The translations under genes and the position numbers were made by a program. This document shows positions 2,286 through 59,247 of a stretch of 64,000 bases of DNA, one piece after another (within the stretch, counting starts at the first letter, position 1; each line of letters begins with the position of its first letter). The notes below the pieces were generated by a model. The model made no database searches. It was not told the origin of the DNA and saw only the letters and a list, made by a program, of their open reading frames with translations. Source of the stretch: Falsiroseomonas tokyonensis (GTDB taxonomy: Bacteria; Pseudomonadota; Alphaproteobacteria; Acetobacterales; Acetobacteraceae); contig NZ_JAFNJS010000001.1 in assembly GCF_019024325.1 (NCBI RefSeq), positions 620,001-684,000 on the forward strand, given 5' to 3'.

Positions 2286-3029
2286 TCACGCGCCGAAGCG
2301 GCTGCGGATCTGCTGGTGGATGCCGGGTTGAGCGAAGGTGACCTCATGCATCGCCTGTTCGCGCGCCACGGCGGCGGGCAGGGCGTCGCGGATCGGCGTG
2401 GCCAGGGCTGCTTTCAGCAGGCGCAGCGCAACTGCCGGTTTCGCGGCCAGATCGCGCGCCAGGCGCAGCGCGGTGGGCAGCACCTCCGCCCGCTTCACCA
2501 CGGGCAGGCCCAGGCCACGCTCCCGCAGCGCGCCGCCGTGATAGCCATTGGCGGTGAAGAGCATCTCGTTCGCCAGGGCATTGCCGAGCCGGTGCGGCAC
2601 GATGAGCGTCGCGCCCATGCCCGGCGTGAATCCGTATTTCATGAAGTTGGTGGCGTAGAGCGATTCCACCGCGAGTACGGACAGATCCGCATAAAGGCCG
2701 AAGACCAGCCCGCCACCCAGCGCATGCCCATCCATCGCCGAGATCACCGGCAGCGGACAGTCGAGCAGCATGCGGTAGAAGCCGGCCTCGTCGAATTTCT
2801 GGCGGCCGTCGGCGATGCCGATCAGTTCCTCGAGCGTGCCGCCGGCGCAGAAGATGCCCTCCGCGCCATGCAGCACGACGACCTTTGCAGCGGGGTTCGC
2901 CTCGATCGCGGCAAAGGCGGCGGCGAGGCCGGAGACGAGGGCAACCGAAAACGTGTTGCGGCCAGCGCGGTCCTGCAGCGTGACGATGGCGATCTCGCCT
3001 TGCCAGTGCAGGGCTACGGCGTCCTCCAC
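2286..3029 (-). CDS. Enoyl-CoA hydratase-like decarboxylase, beta-branching ECH2 (PksI type)
   Basis: The 247-residue crotonase-fold protein is the last gene of the operon. It shows the two oxyanion-hole segments (FCAGGTLEEL near residue 60 and HALGGGLVFG near residue 102) and the KYGFTPGMGAT block typical of the ECH2 subgroup. In HMG-synthase cassettes ECH2 decarboxylates the 3-methylglutaconyl-ACP made by ECH1, leaving a beta-methyl (or exomethylene) branch on the chain. The start is GTG at 3029 with GGGAGG six bases upstream, and it overlaps ECH1 by 16 bp. The order ACP, KS, HMGS, ECH1, ECH2 is the canonical cassette, which supports this role over a catabolic hydratase. Confidence 0.9.
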   Translation of the reverse strand: MEDAVALHWQGEIAIVTLQDRAGRNTFSVALVSGLAAAFAAIEANPAAKVVVLHGAEGIFCAGGTLEELIGIADGRQKFDEAGFYRMLLDCPLPVISAMDGHALGGGLVFGLYADLSVLAVESLYATNFMKYGFTPGMGATLIVPHRLGNALANEMLFTANGYHGGALRERGLGLPVVKRAEVLPTALRLARDLAAKPAVALRLLKAALATPIRDALPAAVAREQAMHEVTFAQPGIHQQIRSRFGA

Positions 3030-3781
3030 GGCGCGCCTCCCGATTCCAGAAAGGCGCGGATTGCGGTCATGCTGCGCGGGTCCGCGATTCGGGTCGCGAT
3101 AGTCTCGACGGCGTGGCCGCGCGTGGCGTCGTTCATGATCCAGAGCTGGCGGAAGTACGCCTTGGTGGCCGCGACATCGCGGCGCGCCACGCGGTCCATG
3201 CGGATCAGAAGGCGGCGCAGCGAATCCGCGGGCGTCTCCGTCACCTCATCGACCAGGCGTCGGGCGAGGGCAGTGGCGGCATCCATGCGTTCCGCCGTCA
3301 ACGTCATCCGAAAGGGGTCCTGCGCGCCCATACGGCGCACCAGGAAGGGCGCGACGGTGGCGGGCAGCAGGCCGAACAGGATTTCGGACAGCTGGAAGCT
3401 GGCGCGCGGCGTGGCGATGGCGATGTCACTGGCCGCGACCAAGCCGAGCCCGCCCGCCGTCGCCGGCCCATCCACCAGCGCCACGGTGACGATCTCGCTG
3501 GCGCCGAGCCGCTCGAACAGGTCGTAGAGGCTGCCGACCAGGGCGCGGATGCCGGCCTCGTCCATGTCGCTGGTGGCGGTGGCCTCGGAAAAATCCATGC
3601 CGGCGCAGAAGACGCCGCCGGCGCCCTGGATGGTCAGGATGCGCAGGTCTGGATCCGCCTCCGCCTCATCGAGTGCCGCGTGCAGCCCGGCGATGCTGGC
3701 GCGGTTCAGCGGATTGCCGCGCGCCGGTGCGTCCAGCGTTGCGGCCAAAACCTTGCCGCGGCGCGTGAGCGTCAGGCCCAT
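3014..3781 (-). CDS. Enoyl-CoA hydratase-like dehydratase, beta-branching ECH1 (PksH type)
   Basis: The 255-residue crotonase-superfamily protein starts at the ATG at 3781, which overlaps the HMGS stop by 10 bp. The frame is open further upstream to 4045, but that stretch lies inside HMGS and is an Arg/Ala-rich shadow. Oxyanion-hole motifs are FCAGMDFSE (near residue 62) and GPATAGGLGLVAASD (near residue 106). In this pathway ECH1 dehydrates HMG-ACP to 3-methylglutaconyl-ACP, the substrate of ECH2. The assignment to ECH1 rather than ECH2 rests on its position after HMGS, the MDFSE motif and the absence of the KYGFTPGMGAT block seen in its downstream neighbour. Confidence 0.88.
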   Translation of the reverse strand: MGLTLTRRGKVLAATLDAPARGNPLNRASIAGLHAALDEAEADPDLRILTIQGAGGVFCAGMDFSEATATSDMDEAGIRALVGSLYDLFERLGASEIVTVALVDGPATAGGLGLVAASDIAIATPRASFQLSEILFGLLPATVAPFLVRRMGAQDPFRMTLTAERMDAATALARRLVDEVTETPADSLRRLLIRMDRVARRDVAATKAYFRQLWIMNDATRGHAVETIATRIADPRSMTAIRAFLESGGAPWRTP

Positions 3782-5013
3782 CGGTAGCGCCGCTGGTAGT
3801 TCTCGATGCGGTCGAGCACCAGCAGGCCGGTGCCGGAAAAACCTTCCTCCCAGAGTTGTTCGAGGCCGTCGCGGGCCACCGTGATCTGCTTCGTGCCCAC
3901 CAGCCCGTCCCGCGTGCGCGCGATCAGCGCCTCGTAGCGCGGCATGTCCATCGGCCGGCGCGCCTGCAGCGCTGCGCCGATGCCGCGCGCCCGCACGGCG
4001 GCGGCGGAGCGCGCATCGGCGAGCCCGGAATAGAATTCGGAGCAACAGCCGGAGCCATAGGAGAACAGCCCGATCCGCTCCGGCCCTTGCGGCGCGAAAT
4101 CCGACGATGCCAGCGCCCCCGCGAGCGCGAGAAAAACCGTGCCGGAATAGATATTGCCCACCTCCTGGCAGAACAGCAGGGAGCCGCGCAGCCTTGCCTC
4201 GAAATCCGCCTCCGCCGCGCTGGGCGGCGCCTGACGGAATTTCCGCATCATGTTGCGATGCGCGCCTTTCACCATGCCGCCGAAGGGCGTGTGCCAGGCC
4301 AATCGAGAAAAGTGCGAGACGAAATCCACGCCCGGCTGCTGAGCGACATAGGCACGAAAGCTGTGCTCCAGACAGTCGAGGTAGCTGAGCACGGAAAGGT
4401 CCGCATCGCCCGTCTCGATCTCCGGCGTCGGCCGGCAGGCATCCATCACCTCATAGCCATGCACGCCGCTCGCGCCGCTCTCCAGCGCCAGCACCACGGG
4501 ATTGCGGGAGACAAGCAGCGCCACGGCGGCGGAGCCCTGCGAGGGTTCGGCATAGGAATGCGGCACCGGCCGGCCGAGATCGGTGGCGATGACCAGCGCG
4601 CGGGCCTCGGGGTTCGGCGAGGCCGCAACCATGGCCGCCGCCATCTGCAGGGCCGCGGTGCCGCCGTAGCAGGCCTGCTTCACCTCGAACAACCGGCAGT
4701 GTTTTGGGAGCTCAAGATGGTGGTGCACATAGGTCGCCGCGGACTTGCCCCAATCGAGGCCGGATTCGGTGGCGACGATCACCAGCTCGATCGCCTGGCG
4801 CTGCGCCGGCGCCAGCGCCGCGACGACCGGGCGCGCGGCATTGACGGCGAAGGAGACCGCATCCTCCCAGGGCGCACAGAGGCTTTTGCGCCGCATCAGC
4901 AGATTGGCGAAGCGCGCCTGGTTCAGCCCGCGCGCCTCCGCCAGCATGGCCACATCGAGGCTGGCGCGGCCGGCATAGACGCCGAGATCCTCGATGCCGA
5001 TGGCGTCGCTCAT
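3772..5013 (-). CDS. Hydroxymethylglutaryl-ACP synthase (PksG-type HMGS)
   Basis: The 413-residue HMG-CoA synthase-family protein adds acetyl-ACP-derived carbons to a beta-keto polyketide thioester on the assembly line, the first step of beta-branching. Visible catalytic features are the acyl-accepting Cys115 in KQACYGG, an upstream TESGLDWGKS block holding the general-base Glu, His241 in WHTPFGG, and the SYGSGCCSEF block. The start at 5013 overlaps the upstream KS by ATGA. The frame extends open to 5628, but that part is shadow inside the KS gene. It sits between the decarboxylating KS and ECH1 as in pks/bae-type, mupirocin and curacin clusters. Assembly-line function is strongly supported by context; which module it visits is not decided by sequence alone. 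Confidence 0.93.
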   Translation of the reverse strand: MSDAIGIEDLGVYAGRASLDVAMLAEARGLNQARFANLLMRRKSLCAPWEDAVSFAVNAARPVVAALAPAQRQAIELVIVATESGLDWGKSAATYVHHHLELPKHCRLFEVKQACYGGTAALQMAAAMVAASPNPEARALVIATDLGRPVPHSYAEPSQGSAAVALLVSRNPVVLALESGASGVHGYEVMDACRPTPEIETGDADLSVLSYLDCLEHSFRAYVAQQPGVDFVSHFSRLAWHTPFGGMVKGAHRNMMRKFRQAPPSAAEADFEARLRGSLLFCQEVGNIYSGTVFLALAGALASSDFAPQGPERIGLFSYGSGCCSEFYSGLADARSAAAVRARGIGAALQARRPMDMPRYEALIARTRDGLVGTKQITVARDGLEQLWEEGFSGTGLLVLDRIENYQRRYRWA

Positions 5014-6200
5014 GCGGGGTCCCTTGCGTGTCGCAGCAGCACGGCCGTGGCAAGCCCGCCAAAGCCGTAGGCGGGGCTGAGCGCGTAAAGCGACTCCCGC
5101 TCCAGCGCCGTGGTCGGAAGGTACAGCCGGTCCGTGATCGGCTGCGCCAAGCCCGGCGTGCCATGCACGAAGCCGCCCTGCAATTGCAGTACGCAGGCCA
5201 CCAGCTCCAGCAGCGCGGCGCCCTGAATGGCGTGGCCGATCATGGCCTTGGTAGCATTCACCGGCACCGGCGCACTGCCTAGCAGTGTGGCGAGCGCCTC
5301 GGCCTCCGCCGCATCGCCGGCGGGCGTGCCGGTGGCATGCGCGCTGATGAAGCCGAGCGCATCGGCCGGAAGCGCGCCGAGCGCCGCACGCATCACGCGC
5401 AGCGCCGTCGCCGCATCCGGCGCCACGCCGGCGCGGCCCTGCTGCGCCTGCGCGTGGCCCGCGATTTCGGCCAGCGGCGTGGCGCCACGCGCCTGCGCGG
5501 CTTCCAGCGATTCCAGCACCAGCGCGCCACAGCCTTCGCCGGCGACGAAGCCGGCGGCGGCGCGGTCGAAGGGCCGGCAGGGTGCGCCGGGCGGCGCCAG
5601 CGCGCCGAGCGAGGCCAGCGCCTGCCACTCCACCGGCCCGAAATCCAGCGGCGGCGCCACCACCAGGCAGCCCGGCATGCGCCCCATGGCGATCAGGTCA
5701 GCGGCCACCGCGACCGCCGCATTGCCGCTGGCCGAGGCGCCGCCAATGGAAAGCCCCGGCCCCTGCGCGCCGGTGGCTTCGGCCACCACGGCAGCGAGAT
5801 GCGTATCGAATACCTCCGCCGCATGGCGCGGCGGCGTCCAGGCGGGCTCCTGATGGAACTTGCGCGTGGTGTCGAAGCTGCGCGCCTGCGCGATATTGCT
5901 GCCGGCAACCACCACGCCAAAAGATTCGGCCTGCGTCACGCGCGCATCCGCCAGCGCCGCCAGCGCGACCAGTAGCGCGGCGACCAGCGCGCGGGACCCG
6001 CCCCGCACCGCGCGCTGCGCCGGCTTCGGCAGCGCCGCTGCATCGACTGTGCCCAAGGTCATCGCCGACCCCGGCCATTCGCCCTGCAGCGGCGCCACCC
6101 GCCCTGCGCGCAGCAACTCGGAAAAGCCCGCGGCATCCTGCACGCCGCCAGGCGCCCGCACGCCGAGGCCGGTAATGACGACGCGCCGTGGCTCAGCCAT
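5010..6200 (-). CDS. Free-standing decarboxylating ketosynthase with Cys-to-Ser active site (PksF type)
   Basis: This 396-residue thiolase-fold protein is a single-domain KS. The nucleophile position reads GGASASGNAA, so Ser156 replaces Cys, while both catalytic histidines remain (H288 in AHATGTP, H323 in IGHAIQG). This is the signature of the KS in HMGS cassettes, which cannot condense but decarboxylates malonyl-ACP to acetyl-ACP on the donor ACP. It overlaps the ACP gene by 8 bp upstream and HMGS by 4 bp (ATGA) downstream. It therefore most likely feeds the HMGS reaction and is not a chain-extending KS or a chain-length factor. Confidence 0.92.
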   Translation of the reverse strand: MAEPRRVVITGLGVRAPGGVQDAAGFSELLRAGRVAPLQGEWPGSAMTLGTVDAAALPKPAQRAVRGGSRALVAALLVALAALADARVTQAESFGVVVAGSNIAQARSFDTTRKFHQEPAWTPPRHAAEVFDTHLAAVVAEATGAQGPGLSIGGASASGNAAVAVAADLIAMGRMPGCLVVAPPLDFGPVEWQALASLGALAPPGAPCRPFDRAAAGFVAGEGCGALVLESLEAAQARGATPLAEIAGHAQAQQGRAGVAPDAATALRVMRAALGALPADALGFISAHATGTPAGDAAEAEALATLLGSAPVPVNATKAMIGHAIQGAALLELVACVLQLQGGFVHGTPGLAQPITDRLYLPTTALERESLYALSPAYGFGGLATAVLLRHARDPA

Positions 6201-6447
6201 GCGCCGCCTGGTGCCGCGACCACAGCAGGTCCACCAGCCCGCCGATGCTGGTCACGCCGAGGAAGCTCGTCATGGGCAGCGCCAGCCCCGCCTCCTCCAT
6301 CGAACCCACCAGCACATCGACCCGGTCCATGGAATTGGCGCCGAGCTCCGTCATCGAGCGATCCTCGCGAATCTCGCTGTCCGGCAGATCAGGCAGCACC
6401 GCCTGGATCTGGCGCGCAACGATGCCGAAAATCTCCGAGCGTTCCAT
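6193..6447 (-). CDS. Discrete donor acyl carrier protein (AcpK type)
   Basis: The 84-residue carrier protein carries the phosphopantetheine-attachment Ser39 in LGANSMDRV, a divergent version of the usual GxDS motif that is common among donor ACPs of beta-branching cassettes. It starts at 6447, nine bases after the SDR stop, and overlaps the KS by 8 bp. It would carry malonyl, then acetyl (made by the adjacent KS) and present it to HMGS. The Sfp-type transferase at the right edge of the window is a candidate for its activation. Confidence 0.9.
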   Translation of the reverse strand: MERSEIFGIVARQIQAVLPDLPDSEIREDRSMTELGANSMDRVDVLVGSMEEAGLALPMTSFLGVTSIGGLVDLLWSRHQAAHG

Positions 6448-6456
6448 CCGGGCCTC

Positions 6457-7269
6457 TCAGGGATTCATCATCAGTTCCGCCAGCATGGCAGAACCCGAGA
6501 AACTCTGGCCGCCATCTGCCACCAATGCCACGCCGGTCAGCAGCCCGCCCATGGGCGAGGCGAGGAAGCAGCAGACATTGGCGATATCCTCCACCGTGCC
6601 GAAGCGGCCGAGCGGCACATAGCCCTTCAGCGTGTCGATATCCTCCGCCGTCAGCAGGCGGGACAGGCCCTCGGTGCGCTCGATCGGGCCGGGCAGCACG
6701 CTGTTGCAGCGGATGCCGTGCTTGCCCCATTCCAGCGCCAGGCCACGCATCAGGCTGTCGATCCCCGCCTTGGCGGCGCCGACATGCACCTGGAAGGCGA
6801 AGGGCATCAGCGCATTGGTGGCGGAGACGAAGATGATATTGCCGCGCTGCGCCTTCAGCTGTGTGAAGGCCGCGCGCGCCGCGTTGAAGGACCCCATCAG
6901 GTCCACCGCGATGACCTTTCGGAATCCCTCCGCCGTCATCTGCTCGGCGGGTGCGGGAAAGTTCGCCGCGGCGCCGCAGACCAGCACGTCCATCGCGCCG
7001 ATCGTTTGGCGCGAGGCCGCCATCGCCGCCTCCAGGCTCGCATAATCCGTCACATCGGCCACCAGCGGCAGGGCGGTGGCGCCGAGGCCGCGCAGTTCCG
7101 CCGCCGCCGTTTCCAGCGTCTCCCGGTTGCGGCCGCATAGCGCGAGGTCGGCGCCCAGTGCGGCAAAGCCACGCGCGATGCCGAGGTTGATGGTGCCGGC
7201 GCCGCCGGTGACGAAGACGCGCCGCCCGCGGAACAGATTCGGTGCGAAGCCGGAGACGGGGTCAGGCAT
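6457..7269 (-). CDS. SDR oxidoreductase of the 2,4-dienoyl-CoA reductase-like group
   Basis: The 270-residue Rossmann-fold protein opens with the nucleotide-binding segment TGGAGTINLG (near residue 20). The usual YxxxK catalytic pair is not intact: the segment reads QVHVGAAKAG, with Val163 where Tyr is expected and Lys167 kept. Loss of that Tyr together with downstream LALEWGKHGIRCN and PGPIERTEGL blocks is typical of peroxisomal-type 2,4-dienoyl-CoA reductases and related bacterial SDRs, not of ordinary ketoreductases. It overlaps gene E by 8 bp and is therefore part of the operon. The assembly line has no enoyl-reductase domain, so a trans-acting reduction of a dienoyl-ACP is a reasonable inference. 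A plain keto or hydroxy oxidoreductase role is not excluded. Confidence 0.82.
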   Translation of the reverse strand: MPDPVSGFAPNLFRGRRVFVTGGAGTINLGIARGFAALGADLALCGRNRETLETAAAELRGLGATALPLVADVTDYASLEAAMAASRQTIGAMDVLVCGAAANFPAPAEQMTAEGFRKVIAVDLMGSFNAARAAFTQLKAQRGNIIFVSATNALMPFAFQVHVGAAKAGIDSLMRGLALEWGKHGIRCNSVLPGPIERTEGLSRLLTAEDIDTLKGYVPLGRFGTVEDIANVCCFLASPMGGLLTGVALVADGGQSFSGSAMLAELMMNP

Positions 7270-10200
7270 CGGTCACGCGCATCTCCATCGCATCCTCATA
7301 GCCGATCTCGCCGGCCTCCAGCCGCCGCAGCAGGCTGGCCAGGTCGCTGGCGCCGGGGTCGGGCGGCGGTGGCTCGGCACTGGCTTCCATGCGCCGGCGG
7401 ATCAGGCTGCGCAACCGGTCCGTGCGCTCGCGCGACCCGGCGATGCGATCCGCGACGTCGGATTGCTCCGCCTCAGCGGGTCCCGCCGCGCCATGTTCCA
7501 GCCGGATATAGGCGGCGAGCTCACGCACCGTGGCATAGGTGAAAAGCGCGGTGGTCTTCAGGTCGATGCCAAACACCTCGTTCACCCGGCGCACCAGTTC
7601 CACGCTGATGATGGAATCCGCGCCGTATTCGGAGAAACTGGCCTCCGGCTCCACCTCCTCCAGCGCCAGGCGCAGCGCCTCGGCGACGGTGATGCGGAGT
7701 CTTTCCTCGATGCCGTCATCCATGCGCTGCGGCTGCGTGACGACGCGCGGTGTTTCCACCGCGGGTGCAGTCCGACCAAAACCGTCGGCCTCGGCCAGCA
7801 GGATGCATTGCAGCGCCGGATCGCCCAGCGCGGTGACACCGCAAAAACCCGCGGCGGCCAGGCTGTTCCGCCAGCGCGGCAGGTCCAGCAGCGGCGCATG
7901 CGGCAGGCGCGCTTCGGGATCGCCAAAAAGCCACCAGCCGCGGGTCAGGCCGAAGGTCAGCGTGTTGAAGTCCTGGGCCGCCGTCGCCTCGTTGATCGCC
8001 ACCAGCCCGCCCGGCCGCAGCAGCGCGTGCAAATTGGCCAGTGTCACCGCGATCCGCGGCGTGGCGTGCAGCACATTGGCCGCGATCACGATATCGAAGC
8101 TGCGCGGGACCATTCCCTGCGCCGCGGGGGCCGCGGAGATATCCAGCCGCGCCGTGCGCAGGAAGGGTGCTTCCGCCCGCCATTCGCGTTCCGCCTGTTC
8201 CAGGAAGGCCGGGCCGATATCGGTGAAGAGGTAGTCAACGTGATCGGCGAAGGGCGCCAAAGCGCGCAGCACGAAGCGCGTTGTGCCGCCGGTGCCGGCG
8301 CCGACTTCCAGGATACGCACCGGCCCCGGCCGCGCCGCGACGGCCGCTGCCACCGCCTGCGCGAGCATGTGCTGCAGATGGTCCACCACGGGATTGCCCG
8401 CATAGATTGGCGCGACGAGGTCGAAGCTGCCGCCGGGGAAGAGCACGGCATTGGCATCCACCTCCCCGGTCAGCACCGCCGGCAGGCTTTTGGTGCAGGC
8501 CTGCAACAGGCGGAGATAGGGCGCCGCAGCGGGATCGCGGGCCAGCAAATCCTCCGCCTGGGCGGCGAGCGCCACCGCATCCAGCGGCTCCGCCTTCGCC
8601 AGCATCGCCTGAACCGCCGCCTCGAGGCGCTTCTGGGGCGCGATGGCCTTCGGGAAGCCAGCAGCCGAGAGCGTGGCCCGCGCCAGCGCCGTGGCGTGCC
8701 GGTTGATGGCACCAAAACCCTCGGCCGCGCCGCGCAGCACCGCGCCGCCCTCGGCCTGCACCGCCTCGGCTGCCGCGCGCGCGGCGGGCAGCAGGCGCAG
8801 CGGCGGCTCGGCCGGCACTGCCAAGCGCCGCGTGGCATCGGCGCGCAGCTCCGCCGCCACGCGGTCCGAGATGCGCAGCGGCATCACGCGATCCAGCCCC
8901 GGCGCGGCCAAGGCACGGAAGAGCAGCGAAAGCCCCTCGGCCGTGCCGATCGGGTGCACGCCGATGCGCGCCAGGCTCGTGCGATGCGCCGCCGTCGCCA
9001 CCGCGCCGACCTCCCCCCAGAAACCCCAGTCGAGCACCAGCACCGGGCGGTCCTGCCGCAGGGCGAAGGCATCGGCGAAGGCGCTGGCGGCGGCATAGGC
9101 GGCCTGGCCAGGATTGGCGGTTTCCGCATTGGCGGAGGAGAAGACCACCAATCGCGCTGGCGCACCCCCCGCCTCCTGCCGCGCCAGGGCGGCGAGCAGA
9201 TTGGCGAGGCCCGTGGTCTTGGGCGCCAGCACGGCCGCAATATCCGCATCCGCCTGGGCCAGCACGCGACCCTCGCGCAGGTCCATCGCCGCATGCACCA
9301 CGGTGGTGATGGGGCCGCAGCGCGCCACCGCCTCGGCCAGCGCGGCCTCCAGCGCCGCGGGCTGCGCCAGGTCGGCGCGCAGATGCAGGATGCGCCCGGC
9401 GCCGCGCGCCAGGGTTTCGGCCACGGCCGCGCTGGGCACCCTGCGGCCGAGCAGCACCACGCGCGCGCCGCGTTCCGCCAGATGTTCCGCCAGCGCCCGG
9501 CCGAGGCCGCCGGCGCCGCCCGCGATCAGCACCACGCCCTCCGCCGGCGCCGGGCTCGCCGGCAGGTCCAGCGCGCCAAAACCGCGGCGCAGGGCCACGC
9601 CATCGCGCAGCGCCAAGTCCGCGCCCGGGGCGGCGAGCGCGGGCAGCAGGGCGGGCGCCTCCACATCCGCGGGGTCGACATCCAGCAGGGCCAGGCGCAG
9701 CTCCGGCTGTTCGCGCGCGGCCGCCCGGCTGAAGGCGGCAAGCGCCGCCGCCAGCGGGCAGGGCTTTTCGCCCGGCCGGGCGCGCTGCGCACCGGATGTC
9801 ACCACCACCAGCCGCGGCGGCGCCGGGCGGGCGGCGAGGTCGCGGACCAGCGCGGCCAGATGCAGCACGGCGGCTTCCAGCTGCGCCGCCGAGTCCTCGA
9901 CGCCGCCAACCAGTAGCCAGACGGCATCCGTGCCGAGGTCCGGCAGGGCAGTGTCGGGCGCCACGCCCAGCACAGCGCCCAGCCGCGCCGCCAGCGCCGC
10001 ATTGGCAAAGGGCGCCAGCAGCACGGGGGCGCGCAGCGGCGCCGTGGCCTCCGGCATCGGCACCGGATCCCAGACCGCGTGCCAGGCCTCCAGCGCCGGC
10101 AGGGCGGCGGCGCGACGGGCGACGAAGCCGTGCAGGATGGCCTGCGGCGCGCCGGCCGCATCCTCCAGCACCAGGTCGAGCACGATCTCCCCCGCCTCCG

Positions 10201-51100: not shown

Positions 51101-54100
51101 TGCACCGCGATGCGGTAGACCGGCACCTGCGGCAGCACGCGCTGGCGGCCATCCGGATCGATGACGGCGCGCAGCATGTCATGCGCCGCCACCAGCCGGT
51201 TGAGCGCCGCCTCCAGCGCCGGCGCCTCGGCGGTTACGGCGAATTCCCAATAGCTGTGGCAGGGCCCGCCGAGCGGCAGGGCGGCACCGCGGCCCGCCAG
51301 ATAGGCCATCTGCAGGTCGGTCAGCGGGAAGGGTTCATGGCGTGCCCCCGCATCCGGCACAATCACGGCCTGTGGCGCAGAGGCGGGCGCAGTCGCCACC
51401 GCCGCGTGCAACGAAGCCAGATCCGGCGCCGCCAGCAGCGCGGCCACCGTCACGTCGCGGCCGAGTTCGGCGGCAATCCGCTGCCGCAGCTCCAGCGCCA
51501 GCAGACTGTCCAGCCCCAGCGCCACCGGCGCGACATCCGCCGCGATGCGCTCGGGCGGCATGCGCAGCACCGCGCCCAGAAGCGCCCGCAGCGGATCGGG
51601 CGTGGCCACCGCCACCGACTCGGCCACCGCGGCCCCCGGCCAGAAGCTGTCCTGGGCAAAGGGATAGCCCGGCAGCAGGGTCAGCCGCCGCGCGCCCGCA
51701 TCCCAAGGCAGCGCCACCGCGACGCCGGCCACGAAGAGCTCCGCCACCGCCTGCAGCGGCGCCGCATCGCCCGGCCGCGCCTCGGCCAGCAGGCTCTGGG
51801 CCGCCTTGGCCAGCAGCGCCGCCGCGCCGGGATCCCGTTTCGGCGCGCGGCCGGTGCGCGCGCCCTTCAGCCGGGCCAGCGCCTCCGCCGCATCCGCCGC
51901 CACCAGCGCGGCGCGCCAGGGCAGCGGCGCCGCGGCCTCCGCCAGGCTGCGCGCCAGGTCGGCCATGCGGGTTGCGGGATGCCGCCGCAGCCATTCGGCC
52001 AGCGCGGCGAGGCGCGCGTCCAAGGCTGCCTCGGTCTGCGCCGTCAGCACCAGCAGCTGCGGCCCCTCGGCCACCGGCGGCACCGGCAGGGCGGGCGCTT
52101 CTTCCACCACCAGCATGCCGTTGGCGCCATTCAGCGCGAAGACGCTGACCAGCGCGCGCCGTGCCCCCGCCCAGGGCGCGGCGGTGGCGGAGGCCACAAA
52201 ACCCGCCGCCGCCAGCTCCGGCGCCGCGGCGCCCAGCCCTGCGGTCGGCGCCAGCACCCCGTGGCGCAGCTGCAGCACCACCTTGCACAGCGCCGCCAGC
52301 CCCGCCGCCGCCAGCCCATGCCCCAGCGCCGGCTTCACGGAGCCCACCGGCACCGTCCGGCCGCCCAATGCCGCGCCGGCGCCCGCCAGCTCCGTCGCAT
52401 CGCCCGCCGCGGTGCCGACGCCATGCGCCTCCAGCCAGCCGATCTCGCCGGGCGCCGTTCCCGCCGCAGCCAGGACCGTCCGGGCCAGCCGCGCCTGGCC
52501 CTCCGCGCTCGGCGTGGCAATGCCGAGGCCGCCGCCGCCGTCATGCCCCATGCGGGCGGCGCGCAGCACGGCGTGGATCGGCTCGCCCGCCGCCACCGCA
52601 TCCTCCAGCCGCCGCAGCACCAGTGCGCCCACACCCTCGCCCAAAACCATGCCATCGGCCTCGGCCGAAAGCGCGGCGCAGCGGCCGCTGGCGGAGAGCA
52701 GGCCGGCGGCCCCGGCCAGCGCCGGCATCTGTGGCGTCGCCATCACCGCGACGGCGCCGACCAGCGCCGCATCCACCTCCCCGGCCCGCAGCGCCGCGCT
52801 GGCGGCGGCCAGCGCCGCGACGGCGGAGGCGCAGGCGGCATCCAGCGTCACCGCCGGCCCCTGCATCCCAAAGTGATGCGCCAGCCGCGCGGCCAGGCTG
52901 CCGCCGAGCTGCCCGACGAGCGAGACGCGATCCGGCCCGCCGCCGGCCAGCGCCAGCTTCAGCGCCCAGTCGCCCGGGCTGGCGCCGACCCAGACGCCCA
53001 TGCGCTGCCGCAGTGCCGGCGGGGCGGTGAACAGCCCGGCCTCGGCCAGGGCATTGTGGGCTTCCTGCAGCAGCAGGCGCTGCTGCGGGTCCATCGCCAT
53101 GGCCTCGCGCGGCGACAGGCCGAAGAAACCCGCATCGAAGTTCTGGGCATCCTCCAGGAAGCCACCGCGGGTGAGGCGGGCGGGGTCCAGGCCGGGCGCC
53201 AGGGCGGCCATTTCCGCCGCGGTCCAGCGCCCCGGCGGCGCGGCGCCCAGCGCGCTGCCGCCGGATTGCAGCAGGTCCCAGAGGGCGGGCAGGTCGGCGG
53301 CGCCGGGGAAGCGCGCCGAGAGGCCGGTGATGGCGATGGCATCGCCGCCGGCGCTTGCGGGCGGCGCCAGGACGCGCGGTGCCGCAAGGGCCGGCTCCGG
53401 CCTCGGCGTGGGCGGGGCCGCCGACGTCTCCAACTGCTGCGCCAGCGCCAAGGGGCTCGGAAAATCGCCGAAGAGATGCAGCGGCAGGCGCCGGCCGAGG
53501 CGCGGCGCCCAAAGCTCTGCCACGCGCAGCGCCACCACGGAATCGATGCCGAGCGCGGCAAAGGGCGCCTCCGGCTCGATCTCCGCCGCCGGCACGCCGA
53601 TCACCTCCGCCAGCACCTCGATGAGTTGCGCCAGCCGGCCCCCGGCCTGCGGCGGTGGCGGAGGCGGAGCAGCCGGGGCCGTCGGCTGCAGCCGGGCGAT
53701 GTAGTCCGCCAGCGCCTGCGGCGTCGGATGGTCGCCAAAGACATGCACCGGCAGGCGCAGGCCGAGCGACTGGCGCAGGCGATCCGCCACCGAGGCCGCG
53801 ACGATGGAATCGACGCCCATCTCGATGAAGCGCGCGCCGGGCTCCACCTCTGCCACCGGCACCTCGATCACCGCCGCGACGGCTTCCGTCACGGCCGCCA
53901 GCAGGTCTGGGCTCGTGGCCATCGGATCCTCCCGGGATTGCGGCGGCGCATCGCCCCGGCGCGCCATGGCGAAAATACCCTGCGGCGTCTCGGCCAGGGC
54001 GATGCGGTCGAAGCCGGCGGCGGCCAGCTCCGCCTGCCAAGCAGTGGCCTCCGGTGGAGCGTCCCAGGCCGCCGCATGCAGGCCGAGGGTCGCGATCTCC

Positions 54101-57100
54101 CGGTCCGCGACAGCGCCGCGCAGCGCCAGCAGCAGCAGGCCGCCGGGCGCGAGCCGCGCGGCAGCCTCGGCCGGCGGGGTGGGGCCGAGGCTCAGCATCA
54201 GGTCGAAGGGTGCTTCCCCCGCTGCATCCGGCAGCAGCCGCAAGCCGCGGCCCGCCAGCCGTGCCTCGGCGGCGGCGCGCGCCGCGGCGCTACGATCCAC
54301 CGCCACCAGCGCCGCGCCCGGCGGCAGGGAGGCGGCGATGGCCTGCGTCACCAGCCCGTCGCCGCAACCCAGGTGCAGCAGCCGCGCCGGCCGCGCCTGC
54401 CCCACCAGCGCGGCCAGGGCCGCCAGCCAGGCGCGATCCGCCGGCAGGTCGTGGCGCAGCGCGTTCAGCCGCGCGGGATCCCCCTCCGGCACCAGCAGCG
54501 CGGCACCCTCGGCCGCGCCGCGCAGCAGGGCCGGCCAGGCGGCGAGGCAGGGTGCGGCCGCCGCCGCCCAGCTTCGCGCCTCCTCCGGCATCGGCGAGGC
54601 TTCCACCGGCATCGGCCAAAGCCGCCCGTCCGCATCCTGCCGCAGCGCGCCCTGGCGCAGCAGCAGGCCCGGCAAAGCGGCGGCCGGCGTGGCGAGGCGC
54701 GGCAGCGGCACGGCGAGCCGCGCGCGCCAAGCCTCTGCCGTCTCCCCTTCCGGCAGCAGACCCGCATCCGCCAGGCCAGCCGCGAGCTGCGCGGCCGCGT
54801 GCCGATCCGCCCAAACCTCCACGGCGCCAGGCGGAAAGGCGGGCAGCGCGCCGGCCAACGCGGCCCAGCCATCCGGCGCCTCGGCCAGCGCCGCATCCCA
54901 GCCGGAGTCAAAATGCGCCGCGACCAGCCGCGCCTCCGGCCGCGCCATCGCCGCCTCCAGCGCATCGAGCCCGGCCTCGGCGGCGATCGGCCGCAGCCCG
55001 GTGGCGGCGGCGATGCCGGCGGCGCGGCCGGCGACGCGCCCGGCATCGCCCCAAAGGCCCCAATCCAGCACCTGCACGCGCCCGCCGGCGGCCTCGGCCA
55101 GCCCATCCTGCGCCGCGCAGCCGGCGAGATAGTTCGCCTGGCCCGCATTGCCGCGCAGGACCAGCGCGGAGCCGAAGAGCGCCAGCCGCGCGGCATCCTG
55201 CCCGGTCGCCGCCAGCAGGTTCAGCGTGCCGGCGAGTTTCGGCGCCAGCGCGGCCGCGAAATCGGCCTCCGAAAGGCTGGCCAGGCGCCGGTCGGCCAGC
55301 ACCATGGCCGCCTGCACCACGCGGCCGATCCGCCCCCAGCGCGCGCGCAGCCCGGCCAGGCAGGCATCCAGCGCGGCGGCGTCGGCGATATCCACGGGCA
55401 GGTAGCAGGCCTCGGCGCCGGCGCTGTGCAATTCCTGCAACAGCGCTTCCAGCCCGGGTGGCGCGACGCTGCGGCCGAGCAGGGCGATGCGGCCGCCCGG
55501 CCGTGCCAGTCGCCGCGCCACCAGCCGGCCGAGGCCGCCGGCACCGCCCACCACCAGCTGCACGCCCTGCATCGGCACAGGCGTCGTGGCGCAGGCGGGG
55601 GCCGGCAGCAGCCGCGGGGCGAAGGCGCCGCCATGGCGGATCGCCACCTCCTCCAGCACCGGATCCTCCGCTTGCGCCAGGGCCAGCCAATCGGCGGGGC
55701 CGGGCCGCGCGGGCAGGTCGAGCGTGGTGACGCGCAGCGCCGGCCCGCCCTCCCGCGCCGCGCATTTGCCGAGCGCCGCGACCATGGCGGCCAGCGGCGC
55801 CTGCACCTGATCGCCCGGCAGCACAGCATGGCGCGCCTGCGTCACCAAGCGGATATGGCGCGGCACCGCCGCCGCGACGGCTTCCGCCAGCAGCCGGCGC
55901 AGAGGCGCCAGCATCCCGGTCGCCTCTGCCGCCTCCAGCGGCCAGAGCACGAAGACGTCCCGCGCATCCGGCGGCAGCGCCGCCAAAGGCGCGTCCTGCC
56001 ACGCAGCGCCGGGCAGCAGTGCCGCGAGCCCGGCGCCCTCCGCCCCGCCGCCCAGCACCAGCGCGCCCCGGGGCAGCGCCGCGGCCAGCGGCGCGCCCTG
56101 CCAGGCGAGCACCCGCAGCGGCAGCGCCTCGGCCGGCGCGAGGCTGACGAAGCGGACGCCGCGCAATTCGGCGCAGACCGTGCCCGCCGCATCGCGCAGC
56201 AGCACATCCGCACCGAAGCCGCGCGGATGGGGCCGCAGGCTGGCGCGCGGCACTTCCGCGCACGCCGCATTGGCGCCGCCGAACCAGACGGAGGCAATGG
56301 CGGCCGGCAGCAGCGGCGGGCCTTCGGCCGCCACCAACCCGGCCTGCAGCGCCGCCAGCAGGCAGGCTTGCAGGGCGCCGTCCAGCAGCGCGAGTGGCGC
56401 CGCCGGCGCGAGGGCCGCCGCCAGCCTTGCCGGCCCCGCCTGCGCCGCGCCCAGCACCTGCAGGCCAGGACCATAGGCATGGCCGCGCGCGGCGAAACGC
56501 GCATAGGGATCGTCCAGCGCCATGCCGGCCGCGGCCTGCGGCGGTGCGGCCGCGGGCACGTGGCCTGCGGTCTCAACGGCCACGGCGACGGTCGTGCCAT
56601 CCGGCAGGCGCAAAGCGAGCTCGCCCTGCGACTCGCGACGCAGCCCATCGGCCTGCGCGGCGGGCACCGGGCGCCGAAACTCCACCTGCTCCAGCCGCCA
56701 GGGCGCGGGCCGCGCCGCCAGCCGCAGCAGCATGGCCGCCGCGGGCAGCAGCGGCGCACCGCCGATGACATGCTGCGCCGCCAGCGCGGCCTCCGGATCC
56801 GGTTCGGCACCCGGCCGCGGCGGCATGGGCAGGGCGTGGCGATGCGGGGTGAAGGGATAGGCCGGCAGCGGCGCATCCGCGATGCGACCGGGCAGGCCGT
56901 CCCAGTTCACCGCCGCCCCCGCCACCCAGAGCCGCGCCAGCACCGCATGGCGCGATCCGGCATCCAGCGGCAGCACCCTCTCCGACGCCTCGCCGGGCGA
57001 TCCGCCGATCAGCAGGGTTACGTCCGCTTCGCCGCCGGCCGCGCCCTCCTCCGCCAGGCGGCGCAGCAGCGGAAAGTCGGGGCAGGGGATATCGAGTGGC

Positions 57101-59247
57101 GGCGAGCCGCCCGCCAGCCAGGCCACCGCGGCCTGCTCCGTCAGATGGCCTTCCGCCACCAGCGCGGCAGCGGCGAACCAGGCTTCCCCAATTGCCTGGT
57201 GGCGCGGCGGCAGCTGCCATTTCTCATGCAGCCGCGCCAGGGCGGTGACGCAGGCCAGCAGCGCCAGGCGGCGCGGCGCGCCACCCAGCAGCGCGCCGTA
57301 TTCCGGCGGCAGCGCGCGCTGCCAATCGGCGAGATAGCCGGCGAAGGTCGCATTGCCGCGCGCCAGGGTCGCGGCCCGCGCCAGCAGCCGGTCCGCCTCC
57401 CCGGCATCCGCTTCCACCAGCGCATCCCGCAAGGGGCCGAGCGCGGCCGTGGTCAGCCGCGGCGCGCCTTCCATCCGCCCCGAATCGAGATCACGCAGCG
57501 GCGCGGCGAGGCTGCGCGCCAGCGGCAGCAGCGCGGCCGGCGCCTCGATCCAGCAGGGGCGCAGCGCGCGCAGGATATCCTGCACCAGGGCGCGCTGCGC
57601 CGCGGCCTGCGCGCCCAGCCGCAGCGCCACGCGCGGCGTGCCGGCCGCGACCGGCGCGGGCTCCGCCGCCAGCGCCTGGCGCAGCCCCGCCGAATCCCGC
57701 GCCAGCACCGCCGCCCGGAACCGCTGCGCGGGGCGGCCGCAGGCCAGGGTACGGGCGAGATCCGCCAGCGGCGGCAGCGGCCCGGCCGCGAAGGCGCGCC
57801 AGCGCTGCCAGAGCGCGTCGAAAGCATTGGCATCATGCGCGGAAAACAGCAGCGGCCAGCCCTCCTCCGGCACCGCCAGCGCGGCCTGCGGGACAGGCTC
57901 CGGCGCCTCCTCCAGGATGGCATGCGCCAGCGCGCCACCGAAACCGAAGGCGCTGACGCCGGCCCGCAGCGGCAGGCCGGGCGCGGCGGGCTGCCAATCC
58001 TCCGCCACCAGCGCCGGGCGGAAGGGTCCTTCGGCAAAATCGATCAGCGGGTTCGGCTCGGCCAGGTGCAGCGTCGGCGCGATGCGGCGGGCGCGCAGCA
58101 TGACCAGCAGCTTGGCGACGCCCACCAGCCCCGCCACCGGCTCCAGATGCCCGATATTGGTCTTGGCGGAACCGACCAGGCAGCCGCCCCGCTGCGCGCC
58201 CGCTTCGGCGAAGGCTTCGGCCAGCGCCGCCATTTCGATCGGATCGCCGAGCGGCGTGCCGGTGCCATGCGCCTCGACATAGCCGAGGCTGTCGAGACCA
58301 ACGCCCGCGCTGCGCGCCGCGCGCTGGATCACCTCCCGCTGCGCGGCCAGCGAGGGCGCGGTGACGGTGCGCGTCGCGCCGACATGGCCGGTGGCGCTGC
58401 CCAGCACCAGCCCATGCACCCGCAGCCCGTCACGCCGCGCATCCTCCGGCCGGCGCAGCAGCAGCACCACCACGCCTTCGCCCGGCACATAGCCATCGGC
58501 GGCCGCATCGAAGGTGGCGCAGCGGCCACGCGCGCTCAGCATCCGCGCCTGGGAGAAGGCGATATGCCGCCAGGGCGACAGCAGCAGGCTGACGCCGGCG
58601 ACGATCGCCGTATCGCATTCCTCCGCCGCCAGCGCCCGCCGCGCCTGGTGCAACGCGACGAGGCCGGAGGCGCAGGCGGCATCCACCGCGACGCTTTCCC
58701 CGCTCAGCCCGAAGGCATGCGAGACGCGATTGGCCAGCAGCGCCGCGGTGCCACCGAGGCTCGCCTGGCCATCCGGCGGCACCTCGGCCGCAGTCAGCGC
58801 CTGCAGATGGTCCTGCGCCATGAAGCCGACATGGACCGAGGTGCGATGGCCCGGCCCGCGCAGGCCCTCCGGCGCCAGGCCGGCATCGGCCATGGCCTGC
58901 ACGACCTCCTCCAGCAGCAGGCGCTGCTGCGGATCCATCAGCCGCGCCTCCTTCGGCGAGAGGCCGAAATAGGCATGGTCGAAGCTCTCGGCGGGCCGCT
59001 CGAGAAAGCCGCCCCAGCGGCAGGCGGTGGTACCGGGCGGCAGCGTGCCCGCGCCATCCGCGCCGCGATCGCCATGATGGCGGCGCCAGTCCCAGCGTGT
59101 GGGCGGCACCTCGGTGATGGCGCAGCGGCCCTGCATCAGCAATTCGGCGAAGGCCGTGTAATCGGCCGCACCCGGCAGGCGGCAGGCGAGCCCGACCACG
59201 GCGGCAGCACCCATCGCCACAGGTCCGGCGAGGGCGCCATCCATCAT
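48196..59247 (-). CDS. Hybrid PKS-NRPS A: KS-[AT relic]-DH-KR-MT-ACP-ACP | KS-ACP | Cy-A(Cys)-PCP
   Basis: The 3683-residue first enzyme of the line starts at the ATG at 59247. An in-frame TAA at 59343-59341 and the absence of ATG, GTG or TTG codons between rule out a longer start. Domains (approximate residues): KS 13-430 (Cys192, H327, H367); a degenerate AT-like stretch 560-740; DH from 826 (HVIGGAPLLPA) to about 1085; KR about 1232; a short methyltransferase-like fold about 1627 (HLGCGDG) lacking the NVLHAT block of the other MTs; tandem ACPs (Ser1814, Ser1903); KS from 1970 (Cys2139); ACP (Ser2581); heterocyclization domain 2640-3060 with FPLTDLQMAYLAGR and DLLILD (DxxxxD); adenylation domain 3085-3570; PCP (Ser3619). 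The A-domain specificity residues read by eye are D-L-W-N-M-S-L-I-W-K, close to the cysteine code DLYNLSLIWK. A thiazoline is predicted, or a thiazole if an oxidase acts in trans. Confidence 0.94.
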   Translation of the reverse strand: MMDGALAGPVAMGAAAVVGLACRLPGAADYTAFAELLMQGRCAITEVPPTRWDWRRHHGDRGADGAGTLPPGTTACRWGGFLERPAESFDHAYFGLSPKEARLMDPQQRLLLEEVVQAMADAGLAPEGLRGPGHRTSVHVGFMAQDHLQALTAAEVPPDGQASLGGTAALLANRVSHAFGLSGESVAVDAACASGLVALHQARRALAAEECDTAIVAGVSLLLSPWRHIAFSQARMLSARGRCATFDAAADGYVPGEGVVVLLLRRPEDARRDGLRVHGLVLGSATGHVGATRTVTAPSLAAQREVIQRAARSAGVGLDSLGYVEAHGTGTPLGDPIEMAALAEAFAEAGAQRGGCLVGSAKTNIGHLEPVAGLVGVAKLLVMLRARRIAPTLHLAEPNPLIDFAEGPFRPALVAEDWQPAAPGLPLRAGVSAFGFGGALAHAILEEAPEPVPQAALAVPEEGWPLLFSAHDANAFDALWQRWRAFAAGPLPPLADLARTLACGRPAQRFRAAVLARDSAGLRQALAAEPAPVAAGTPRVALRLGAQAAAQRALVQDILRALRPCWIEAPAALLPLARSLAAPLRDLDSGRMEGAPRLTTAALGPLRDALVEADAGEADRLLARAATLARGNATFAGYLADWQRALPPEYGALLGGAPRRLALLACVTALARLHEKWQLPPRHQAIGEAWFAAAALVAEGHLTEQAAVAWLAGGSPPLDIPCPDFPLLRRLAEEGAAGGEADVTLLIGGSPGEASERVLPLDAGSRHAVLARLWVAGAAVNWDGLPGRIADAPLPAYPFTPHRHALPMPPRPGAEPDPEAALAAQHVIGGAPLLPAAAMLLRLAARPAPWRLEQVEFRRPVPAAQADGLRRESQGELALRLPDGTTVAVAVETAGHVPAAAPPQAAAGMALDDPYARFAARGHAYGPGLQVLGAAQAGPARLAAALAPAAPLALLDGALQACLLAALQAGLVAAEGPPLLPAAIASVWFGGANAACAEVPRASLRPHPRGFGADVLLRDAAGTVCAELRGVRFVSLAPAEALPLRVLAWQGAPLAAALPRGALVLGGGAEGAGLAALLPGAAWQDAPLAALPPDARDVFVLWPLEAAEATGMLAPLRRLLAEAVAAAVPRHIRLVTQARHAVLPGDQVQAPLAAMVAALGKCAAREGGPALRVTTLDLPARPGPADWLALAQAEDPVLEEVAIRHGGAFAPRLLPAPACATTPVPMQGVQLVVGGAGGLGRLVARRLARPGGRIALLGRSVAPPGLEALLQELHSAGAEACYLPVDIADAAALDACLAGLRARWGRIGRVVQAAMVLADRRLASLSEADFAAALAPKLAGTLNLLAATGQDAARLALFGSALVLRGNAGQANYLAGCAAQDGLAEAAGGRVQVLDWGLWGDAGRVAGRAAGIAAATGLRPIAAEAGLDALEAAMARPEARLVAAHFDSGWDAALAEAPDGWAALAGALPAFPPGAVEVWADRHAAAQLAAGLADAGLLPEGETAEAWRARLAVPLPRLATPAAALPGLLLRQGALRQDADGRLWPMPVEASPMPEEARSWAAAAAPCLAAWPALLRGAAEGAALLVPEGDPARLNALRHDLPADRAWLAALAALVGQARPARLLHLGCGDGLVTQAIAASLPPGAALVAVDRSAAARAAAEARLAGRGLRLLPDAAGEAPFDLMLSLGPTPPAEAAARLAPGGLLLLALRGAVADREIATLGLHAAAWDAPPEATAWQAELAAAGFDRIALAETPQGIFAMARRGDAPPQSREDPMATSPDLLAAVTEAVAAVIEVPVAEVEPGARFIEMGVDSIVAASVADRLRQSLGLRLPVHVFGDHPTPQALADYIARLQPTAPAAPPPPPPQAGGRLAQLIEVLAEVIGVPAAEIEPEAPFAALGIDSVVALRVAELWAPRLGRRLPLHLFGDFPSPLALAQQLETSAAPPTPRPEPALAAPRVLAPPASAGGDAIAITGLSARFPGAADLPALWDLLQSGGSALGAAPPGRWTAAEMAALAPGLDPARLTRGGFLEDAQNFDAGFFGLSPREAMAMDPQQRLLLQEAHNALAEAGLFTAPPALRQRMGVWVGASPGDWALKLALAGGGPDRVSLVGQLGGSLAARLAHHFGMQGPAVTLDAACASAVAALAAASAALRAGEVDAALVGAVAVMATPQMPALAGAAGLLSASGRCAALSAEADGMVLGEGVGALVLRRLEDAVAAGEPIHAVLRAARMGHDGGGGLGIATPSAEGQARLARTVLAAAGTAPGEIGWLEAHGVGTAAGDATELAGAGAALGGRTVPVGSVKPALGHGLAAAGLAALCKVVLQLRHGVLAPTAGLGAAAPELAAAGFVASATAAPWAGARRALVSVFALNGANGMLVVEEAPALPVPPVAEGPQLLVLTAQTEAALDARLAALAEWLRRHPATRMADLARSLAEAAAPLPWRAALVAADAAEALARLKGARTGRAPKRDPGAAALLAKAAQSLLAEARPGDAAPLQAVAELFVAGVAVALPWDAGARRLTLLPGYPFAQDSFWPGAAVAESVAVATPDPLRALLGAVLRMPPERIAADVAPVALGLDSLLALELRQRIAAELGRDVTVAALLAAPDLASLHAAVATAPASAPQAVIVPDAGARHEPFPLTDLQMAYLAGRGAALPLGGPCHSYWEFAVTAEAPALEAALNRLVAAHDMLRAVIDPDGRQRVLPQVPVYRIAVQDWRGLPDAPQRLAALQTEFENLRFDAARWPLFRAEISRTPAGTRLHLAVDLLILDLPSLFGLLGQWAALLRDPAAPLAVPPITFRDCVLAARPAPAAALDFWAAEAPRLPPAPELPGAKALEPGAVWPARRHVTRLAPEAWAALRVQAAAAGVTPVHALLTAFAEVLAHWAVAPRFTLNLTMMDRGAAHPAIGAVPGCFTSTLLLGLDLSAPLPFRARAAAVRDRLGVMLAHAAPGGVRVLRDLAKAQGTRPLMPVVFTSGLGHGEGVDALGPLVGGLTRTPQTWLDAHVHEDAEGGLLACWDAIEALFPDGLIAAMFSEFAALLQRLATAAAWQVDARAAIAAAERARREARNATAAPVPAGLLHEPFLRQALAAPDRLAVVAGDRRLTHGALLAEALAVAAALPQARPNELVAVVLPKGAAQIAAVIGVLLAGGAYLPLDPALPPARLRGLITRGECRAILTDATTEASLGAAWPEGLAIVALDRLGPAPLPTSMPAPRAKPTDLAYVIFTSGSTGEPKGVMIDHRGALNTVADVNDRFGIGPQDRTLALSALNFDLSVWDIFGVLGAGGAVVIPAAGSLADPAHLAGLVARHGVTVWNSVPMFLQLLLEGAPQAEQLASLRLVMLSGDWIPLALPPRFAALNSRAQMISLGGATEASIWSILHPIAAQSQPGWPSVPYGAAMRNQRMLVLDEAMADCADFVPGEIHIGGIGLAQGYWRDPLRSAERFVTHPVTGERLYRTGDMGRWRAEGLIEFLGRRDGQVKLGGHRVELGEVEAALAALPGVTQAVAVAPADAGGRRRLFAFCVGTAGATTLRNGLAQRLPSYMLPTEIRLLPALPRNANDKVDRRALEQLCGPDAPVAVPVAAVATPAARLLAIWRAVLGNAALESDANLFEAGATSFTAVEAAARITREIAACSVTDLFEFPSVAAMAAHLAGSAQAEPDPAAQRAERRRAARALAREPA

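Follow-up and report, generated by a model that had tools for sequence, protein, structure and literature searches.

The window analyzed here is a stretch of 64,000 nucleotides (C1:620001-684000, where C1 is contig NZ_JAFNJS010000001.1) in a genome of 6.16 Mb; positions without a contig prefix are counted from its first letter. An assembly line occupies 59247 to 7262 on the minus strand, and scans with Pfam and local HMMs found 12 modular KS, 13 ACP, and 1 PCP in it. The same scans of the window gave 8 KR, 7 DH-type regions, 5 clear C-methyltransferase (cMT) domains, one Cy-A-PCP, one luciferase-like monooxygenase (LLM; Bac_luciferase), and one additional O-methyltransferase-type domain (OMT). 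These numbers reproduce the 12 KS, 13 ACP, one PCP, and one Cy-A counted in the initial annotation, and the strain is, as was supposed there, an alphaproteobacterium, with Siccirubricoccus deserti listed in its family.

Five megasynthase genes and six small genes share the minus strand. The former are counterparts of genes of the patellazole (ptz) line, as judged for four of them by Pfam content, domain order, and the clades in which their KS fall. ORF A (48196..59247, minus strand, 3683 aa), the counterpart of ptzF, reads KS1-DH-KR-(weak MT)-ACP-ACP-KS2-ACP-Cy-A-PCP, with KS1 and KS2 in clades with those of ptzF. The MT region of module 1 scores 27.2 bits in Pfam against a cut-off of 30 and does not match the local cMT HMM, and the Cy-A-PCP is the cysteine heterocycle module annotated earlier, as in ptzF. 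ORF B (39473..48199, minus strand, 2908 aa; ptzA) reads KS3-ACP-KS4-DH-KR-cMT-ACP-KS5, and ORF C (25824..39476, minus strand, 4550 aa; ptzE) reads cMT-ACP-KS6-DH-KR-ACP-KS7-DH-KR-cMT-ACP-KS8-KR-ACP. ORF D (22174..25827, minus strand, 1217 aa; ptzB), identified by Pfam and TIGR04020, consists of a MupA-type LLM monooxygenase, KS9 (probably a KS0), and the OMT, and it is the oxygenation/O-methylation module that had been described. ORF E (7262..22177, minus strand, 4971 aa; ptzC) reads ACP-KS10-DH-KR-cMT-ACP-KS11-DH-KR-ACP-KS12-DH-KR-cMT-ACP and ends in a docking-like helix.

The small genes are likewise on the minus strand. An SDR (6457..7269) is 2,4-dienoyl-CoA-reductase-like and of the same kind and size as the ptzO DCR, according to Pfam and to an NCBIfam 2,4-dienoyl-CoA reductase model that was second best and well under its cut-off; it is 83, 78, and 73% identical to its counterparts in Roseomonas sp. 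18066, Methylosinus trichosporium OB3b, and a genome called G232, three relatives described below. The other five form the beta-branching cassette of the initial annotation, as borne out by Pfam, NCBIfam, and the sequence: the donor ACP (6193..6447; PF00550, with NF005502 under cut-off); a KS whose active-site Cys is replaced by Ser in the motif GGASASG (5010..6200; PF00109, best model NF005490, under cut-off), which we take for the cassette's decarboxylating KS; HMGS, the HMG-ACP synthase (3772..5013; PF08540/PF01154; 54% identical to ptz HMGS); ECH1, the dehydratase (3014..3781; best model NF005498, under cut-off; 44% to a ptz ECH); and ECH2, the decarboxylase (2286..3029; NF005496, over cut-off; 58% to a ptz ECH). 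On the plus strand, beyond the start of ORF A, lie an efflux pump adaptor of the HlyD family (59572..60693) and an RND efflux pump (60690..63767), 63.7 and 82% identical to genes beside the 18066 cluster; the adaptor has a probable function in self-protection.

Parts of the line outside the window

A whole-genome search with PF00698 gave four AT hits (C1:68256, C2:140146, C1:684495, and C1:685436), none of them inside the window or within the line, in agreement with the annotation as a trans-AT PKS/NRPS line; AT would thus be supplied to the modules in trans. Two of the hits belong to adjoining AT-family genes (~C1:684450-686290) that follow the RND pump and start <500 bp to the right of the window edge. 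The first reads GYSLGE and is AH-like; the second reads GHSLGE and scores over the FabD cut-off. Elsewhere in the genome, one hit falls in a stand-alone frame of 337 aa, presumably FabD. A separate PKS frame on another contig (G000:C2:138571-141111, G000 being the window genome; 2458 aa) carries its own AT.

A KS search of the genome returned 22 hits: 12 in the window, its Ser-type KS, 4 in one frame at C1:540202-552744, and 5 elsewhere. The four belong to a remote PKS, PKS2 (C1:540646-552744, with its start at C1:540646), a 4032-aa protein with the order KS-cMT-ACP-KS-KR-ACP-KS-ACP-ACP-KS-ACP-TE, corresponding to KS13-KS16. On one side its neighbor is a PfaD-type ER; on the other lie a P450, a methyltransferase (MT2), and a UbiB-like kinase. 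Its end is ~70 kb from ECH2 on the same contig, and the two loci are convergent, with their large reading frames open throughout. The full line then comprises 16 KS, a TE, and the AT/AH genes, of which the last four KS, the TE, AT, and AH are outside the window; the 13-module line annotated earlier has its modules in place but is only part of a line that continues at C1:540646-552744. The UbiB/ABC1-type kinase gene (L039:14992-16917) stands next to the tailoring genes in the window genome and in their vicinity in the OB3b plasmid (L098:28591-30465; 42%), and a 74% relative occurs in the examined 18066 stretches.

Match with the patellazole line and proposed working

The published ptz set comprises six PKS genes, given with their lengths, together with ECH, KS, HMGS, ECH, two AT, two P450, DCR, Ox, ER, and C, dispersed over the genome (PMC3851785), and its assignment to the patellazoles follows from the fit of the predicted model to the structure (PMC4552006). 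An HMGS search of 36 genomes of the Thalassobaculum order gave three positives: G225 and G226, at 1.5 Mb each, and the 5.6-Mb G232. The modular-KS frames of G225 (3101, 1252, 5024, 6552, 4810, and 3570 aa) fit the lengths given for ptzA-F (9357, 3753, 15105, 19659, 14400, and 10710 bp; PMC3851785), and G225, the genome in which the ptz line was read, is treated here as that of “Ca. Endolissoclinum faulkneri.”

Up to KS15, the module order ptzF-A-E-B-C-D is that of A-B-C-D-E-PKS2 here, with ptzC and ptzD adjoining, and the modules of KS2 to KS14 have identical domain content. Both lines have the Cy-A-PCP as third module, the HMGS cassette, and an LLM alpha-hydroxylation domain fused to KS0, with the OMT in the same protein. 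Stand-alone DCR, ER, P450, AT, and AH genes here are of the kinds of ptzO, Q, M/N, L, and K, matched by label. With the Pfam condensation model, the Cy domain is the sole hit, as it also is in the ptz genome, where ptzR is a stand-alone condensation protein.

Orthology was read from a tree of 166 KS: 82 from five lines (the window genome, Roseomonas sp. 18066, M. trichosporium OB3b, ptz in G225, and G232), 1 extra KS of G232, 12 of S. deserti, and 71 from other loci. Hits with E >1e-60 or <280 aligned residues were excluded before counting, and L046 was omitted as a duplicate of G186. All 17 positional KS groups are monophyletic (SH-aLRT, 93 to 100) wherever a line has the position; KS16 and KS17 are absent from OB3b, and KS17 is absent from the window genome, whose KS are all (16/16) inside the right positional clade. 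The 12 window KS, for which a phylogenetic placement had been proposed, thus each group with their ptz counterpart. At 16/16 positions, the KS of the window genome is sister to that of 18066; these positions include KS13-16 of the remote locus, which argues that the window and remote loci share one history. ptz and G232 are sisters at all 17 positions. The window genome, 18066, and OB3b group together at 10 of 15 positions, in many cases with low support. The KS of the window genome are 68 to 81% identical to those of 18066, 50 to 73% to those of OB3b, and 41 to 61% to those of ptz. By raw identity, a ptz KS of another position is equally close or closer at 2 of 16 positions (KS2 and KS6), so that it is the tree and not identity that carries the orthology claim.

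The initial annotation knew of no pathway with this order and would have withdrawn the idea of a new family in the case of high domain-by-domain synteny with a characterised cluster. Such synteny is found with ptz, as read in G225, and by sequence comparison the line therefore belongs to a patellazole-type family, a known kind rather than a new one. The hint given there at the patellazoles holds as a link; the qualification “distant relative” does not, given the same module order to KS15 and the shared KS clades.

The window line might be complete alone, with ORF E releasing the product without a TE and the remote PKS being a separate small pathway. The ~70 kb between the convergent loci would fit such an arrangement, and assembly lines without a cis TE exist. 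However, KS13-16 have their positional orthologues in the downstream part of the lines of 18066, OB3b (up to KS15), G232, and ptz. The remote-PKS counterpart comes after the ORF E counterpart in 4/4 relatives, with nothing, an SDR, or the cassette and the PfaD ER in between; the remote PKS ends in a TE and has no AT hit beside it; and Pfam found no thioesterase in the window pieces. We regard this separation as very improbable. Helical segments, judged by eye, are alike at the C end of ORF E in the window genome, 18066, and ptzC, and at the N end of PKS2 in the window genome, 18066, OB3b, and ptz, which fits a putative docking pair.

Our preferred reading, with a probability of roughly 0.88, is that the window contains genes A to E and the beta-branching cassette of a patellazole-type trans-AT PKS/NRPS line that continues at a PKS ~70 kb away. 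Gene content, order, orthology, catalytic residues, and the location of the split are observed; the substrates, handover, branch site, product class, and tailoring in the following scheme are predictions. Malonyl units would be loaded in trans by AT and policed by AH, the genes for both lying immediately beyond the right edge of the window. KS1-KS2 would build a short chain, to which Cy-A-PCP would add a cysteine and cyclise it, and KS3-KS8 would lengthen the chain by methyl-branched alkene units plus a beta-hydroxyl. Where ORF C meets ORF D, the fused monooxygenase would alpha-hydroxylate the beta-ketoacyl-ACP before the KR reduces it, and a non-elongating KS9 would hand the chain to the O-methyltransferase. 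ORF E would add three DH-KR units, two of them with cMT, and its C terminus would pass the chain to the remote PKS for KS13-cMT-ACP, KS14-KR-ACP, KS15 with tandem ACPs, and KS16-ACP-TE. The TE would release the product, and the P450, MT2, and PfaD-type ER would tailor it.

The likeliest target of the HMGS cassette is the unreduced KS15 module, with its two ACPs, in the remote PKS. ACPs of branch modules in other lines carry a Trp flag. None was seen in the ACP motifs inspected, those of the proposed KS15 branch module included, so the branch module is not singled out by this mark.

The catalytic triad is CHH in 15 of the 16 KS of the window genome; KS9 has CHS, with Ser for the second catalytic His, and this exception is common to 5/5 lines. 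Loss of this His is taken to abolish chain extension; KS9 is therefore probably a KS0, and ORF D probably a non-elongating alpha-hydroxylation/O-methylation module. Its LLM domain scores 430.8 bits with TIGR04020 (MupA family) against a cut-off of 244.45. MupA acts on a beta-ketoacyl-ACP and hydroxylates its alpha carbon ahead of reduction by the KR, and the patellazole line carries an alpha-hydroxylation domain in cis to KS0 (PMC10952193). From the missing His together with the MupA-family LLM, ORF D most likely adds a hydroxyl and a methyl ether and no carbon. Among the solved structures listed, KS9 (window 22177-25827) scores best with PDB 7zma (433.7 bits; next, 269.1 bits).

Release end and tailoring

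The lines differ at their release ends. Those of ptz and 18066 read KS16-(DH)-KR-cMT-ACP-KS17-ACP-TE; here, the 17th KS and the DH-KR-cMT module before it are absent, and ACP-TE comes immediately after KS16, itself a member of the KS16 clade, a layout that would fit a loss of everything from DH to KS17 in the window genome. KS17 has the triad CQH, with Gln for the first catalytic His, in ptz (ptzD, L107) and 18066 (L093-L094), and CHH in G232; judging by this residue, KS17 of ptz and 18066 probably does not extend. The number of extending KS is likely equal in ptz and here, and OB3b would have one fewer, or two if its Ser-type KS3 is inactive.

Although the KS of the window genome are nearest to those of 18066, its TE, P450, and MT2 are nearer those of OB3b (59, 59, and 71% identical); the TE and P450 are 47 and 37% identical to those of 18066, and no MT2 was found in the examined 18066 stretches. 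The release and tailoring end thus seems to have been exchanged. Against the patellazole-type reading itself stand the TE, nearer OB3b than 18066 or ptz, the P450, nearer OB3b than 18066, module 1, which varies among the lines, the failure to find a ptzP-type oxidase, and the proposed branch module, whose ACPs show no Trp flag.

A line of ptz descent whose product is no longer patellazole-like would result if both ends had changed enough, and the weak MT and tandem ACP of module 1, the missing DH-KR-cMT-ACP-KS17, the other TE and P450, and the extra methyltransferase all point that way. Nevertheless, the modules of KS2 to KS14 are identical in domains to those of ptz, and the chain core should therefore be kept; we consider such a departure unlikely. 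On the reading that we prefer, the product would be of the patellazole class.

None of the six nitroreductase-family loci of the genome and none of the examined cluster flanks match a thiazoline oxidase of the ptzP type, the ptzP candidate in G225 having been identified by family and size, so the ring may stay a thiazoline here or be oxidised by another enzyme. G232 has a ptzP relative (39%). The signature of the ORF A A-domain, which we take to be of the cysteine type, is nearly identical among the relatives, with one position W here and Y in ptz, OB3b, and G232.

Distribution and comparison with known systems

In an HMGS search of 200 genomes sampled from the family, two were positive, the window genome and S. 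deserti, and none of the three others listed in the genus was. This rarity, like the split of the line, could mean that the pathway is a passenger, decayed or silent in this strain; yet the large frames of both loci are open throughout, and catalytic residues are kept in all KS except the one whose exception is common to the five lines. Decay or silence seems quite unlikely to us. On balance we lean, with some reserve, toward a broader picture, in which free-living alphaproteobacteria, probably including the window strain and the methanotroph M. trichosporium OB3b, make patellazole-class compounds. The symbiont pathway would then be part of a wider free-living family, the carboxyl end would be an evolutionary exchange point (15, 16, or 17 KS; swapped TE, P450, and MT), and the line could operate from two loci separated by 70 kb.

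Patellazoles, which are cytotoxic at picomolar levels (PMC3851785), come from a tunicate whose symbiont has not been brought into culture and is considered incapable of independent life (PMC4552006). With near relatives of the entire pathway present in other bacteria, among them a model laboratory strain, its workings, its origin, and the roles of its parts become open to test; across the five lines, a natural series, the core stays constant and the release end changes. The scattering of the ptz genes has been suggested to arise from genome rearrangement early in host restriction (PMC3851785); a split line in a genome of 6 Mb bears on this suggestion, since it indicates that such a line can be split without genome reduction.

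Among the matches listed from the open literature, patellazole is joined with Thalassobaculum in PMC3851785, and no paper joins it with Roseomonas, Acetobacteraceae, or Methylosinus. The open literature searched gave none joining patellazole with Methylosinus (the founding ptz paper, outside that scope, may mention relatives such as OB3b), none on Methylosinus with trans-AT, and nothing related on Roseomonas with trans-AT. PMC8776678 reports hybrid NRPS-PKS clusters in several Acetobacteraceae including S. deserti, its available part being without “patellazole” or “trans-AT”; PMC7930024 has patellazole in its network, and its available part names neither Methylosinus nor Roseomonas. The available parts of PMC11964084, PMC8414978, PMC9600693, PMC12560086, and PMC5983293 hold nothing on a patellazole relation.

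The orphan trans-AT line of S. deserti (L046; G186:C157), from the same bacterial family, shares an early Cy-A, an OMT module, tandem ACPs, an HMGS cassette (HMGS, 55%), and a PfaD ER (62%) with the line here, and it has triple ACPs as well. It differs in having 12 KS in a different order, and it is a cousin, not the same line.

Nearest by KS is the orphan cluster of Roseomonas sp. 18066. In a scan of genome contigs with ORF D, which gave 46 loci, its locus is the one that covers LLM, KS, and OMT (70%). Its contig C69 carries the last ACP of ORF E, the SDR, the donor ACP, Ser-KS, HMGS, ECH1, ECH2, the PfaD ER (opposite strand), and a 5-KS protein with TE. The cassette order is the same as here, and RND/HlyD and AT/AH genes are likewise near the line start, AT and AH being ~4 kb from its RND pump; in contrast to the line here, PKS2 comes directly after the cassette and there are 17 KS.

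A plasmid search with HMGS gave 47 records, 2 of them at >60% identity and both from M. trichosporium OB3b. The orphan cluster on its plasmid pOB3b1 has the same line from KS1 to KS15. Unlike that of the window genome, it has 15 KS in a single plasmid stretch of ~80 kb ending KS15-ACP-ACP-TE; the SDR and then the PKS2 counterpart lie behind the ORF E counterpart, the cassette comes after PKS2, and the donor ACP is fused behind the TE. The active-site Cys of KS3 (L099) is Ser in OB3b only. Pfam found neither KR nor DH in OB3b module 1 and confirmed the DH of the KS4, KS6, and KS10 modules; the local DH model missed all three, and absent DH calls in 18066, G232, and S. deserti, made with the local model only, accordingly mean little. 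The fifth line, that of G232 (C9:67710-163744), in the 5.6-Mb genome of the Thalassobaculum order, has the same order with its PKS frames broken in several places, through either decay or sequencing error.

The mupirocin alpha-hydroxylation bimodule (MupA, KS0) resembles the junction of ORF C and ORF D in placing a MupA-family LLM and a KS0 behind KR-ACP; unlike in mupirocin, the oxygenase here is fused to KS0 and followed by the OMT. Compared with ptz itself, the window line ends KS16-ACP-TE rather than with 17 KS and has two ACPs rather than three at KS15. In module 1, the cMT is clear and the ACP single in ptz, compared with a weak MT and two ACPs here. The TE is 36% identical to that of ptz, MT2 by the remote PKS is absent from the published ptz list, and the line resides in a genome of 6.16 Mb, compared to 1.48 Mb for the ptz host.
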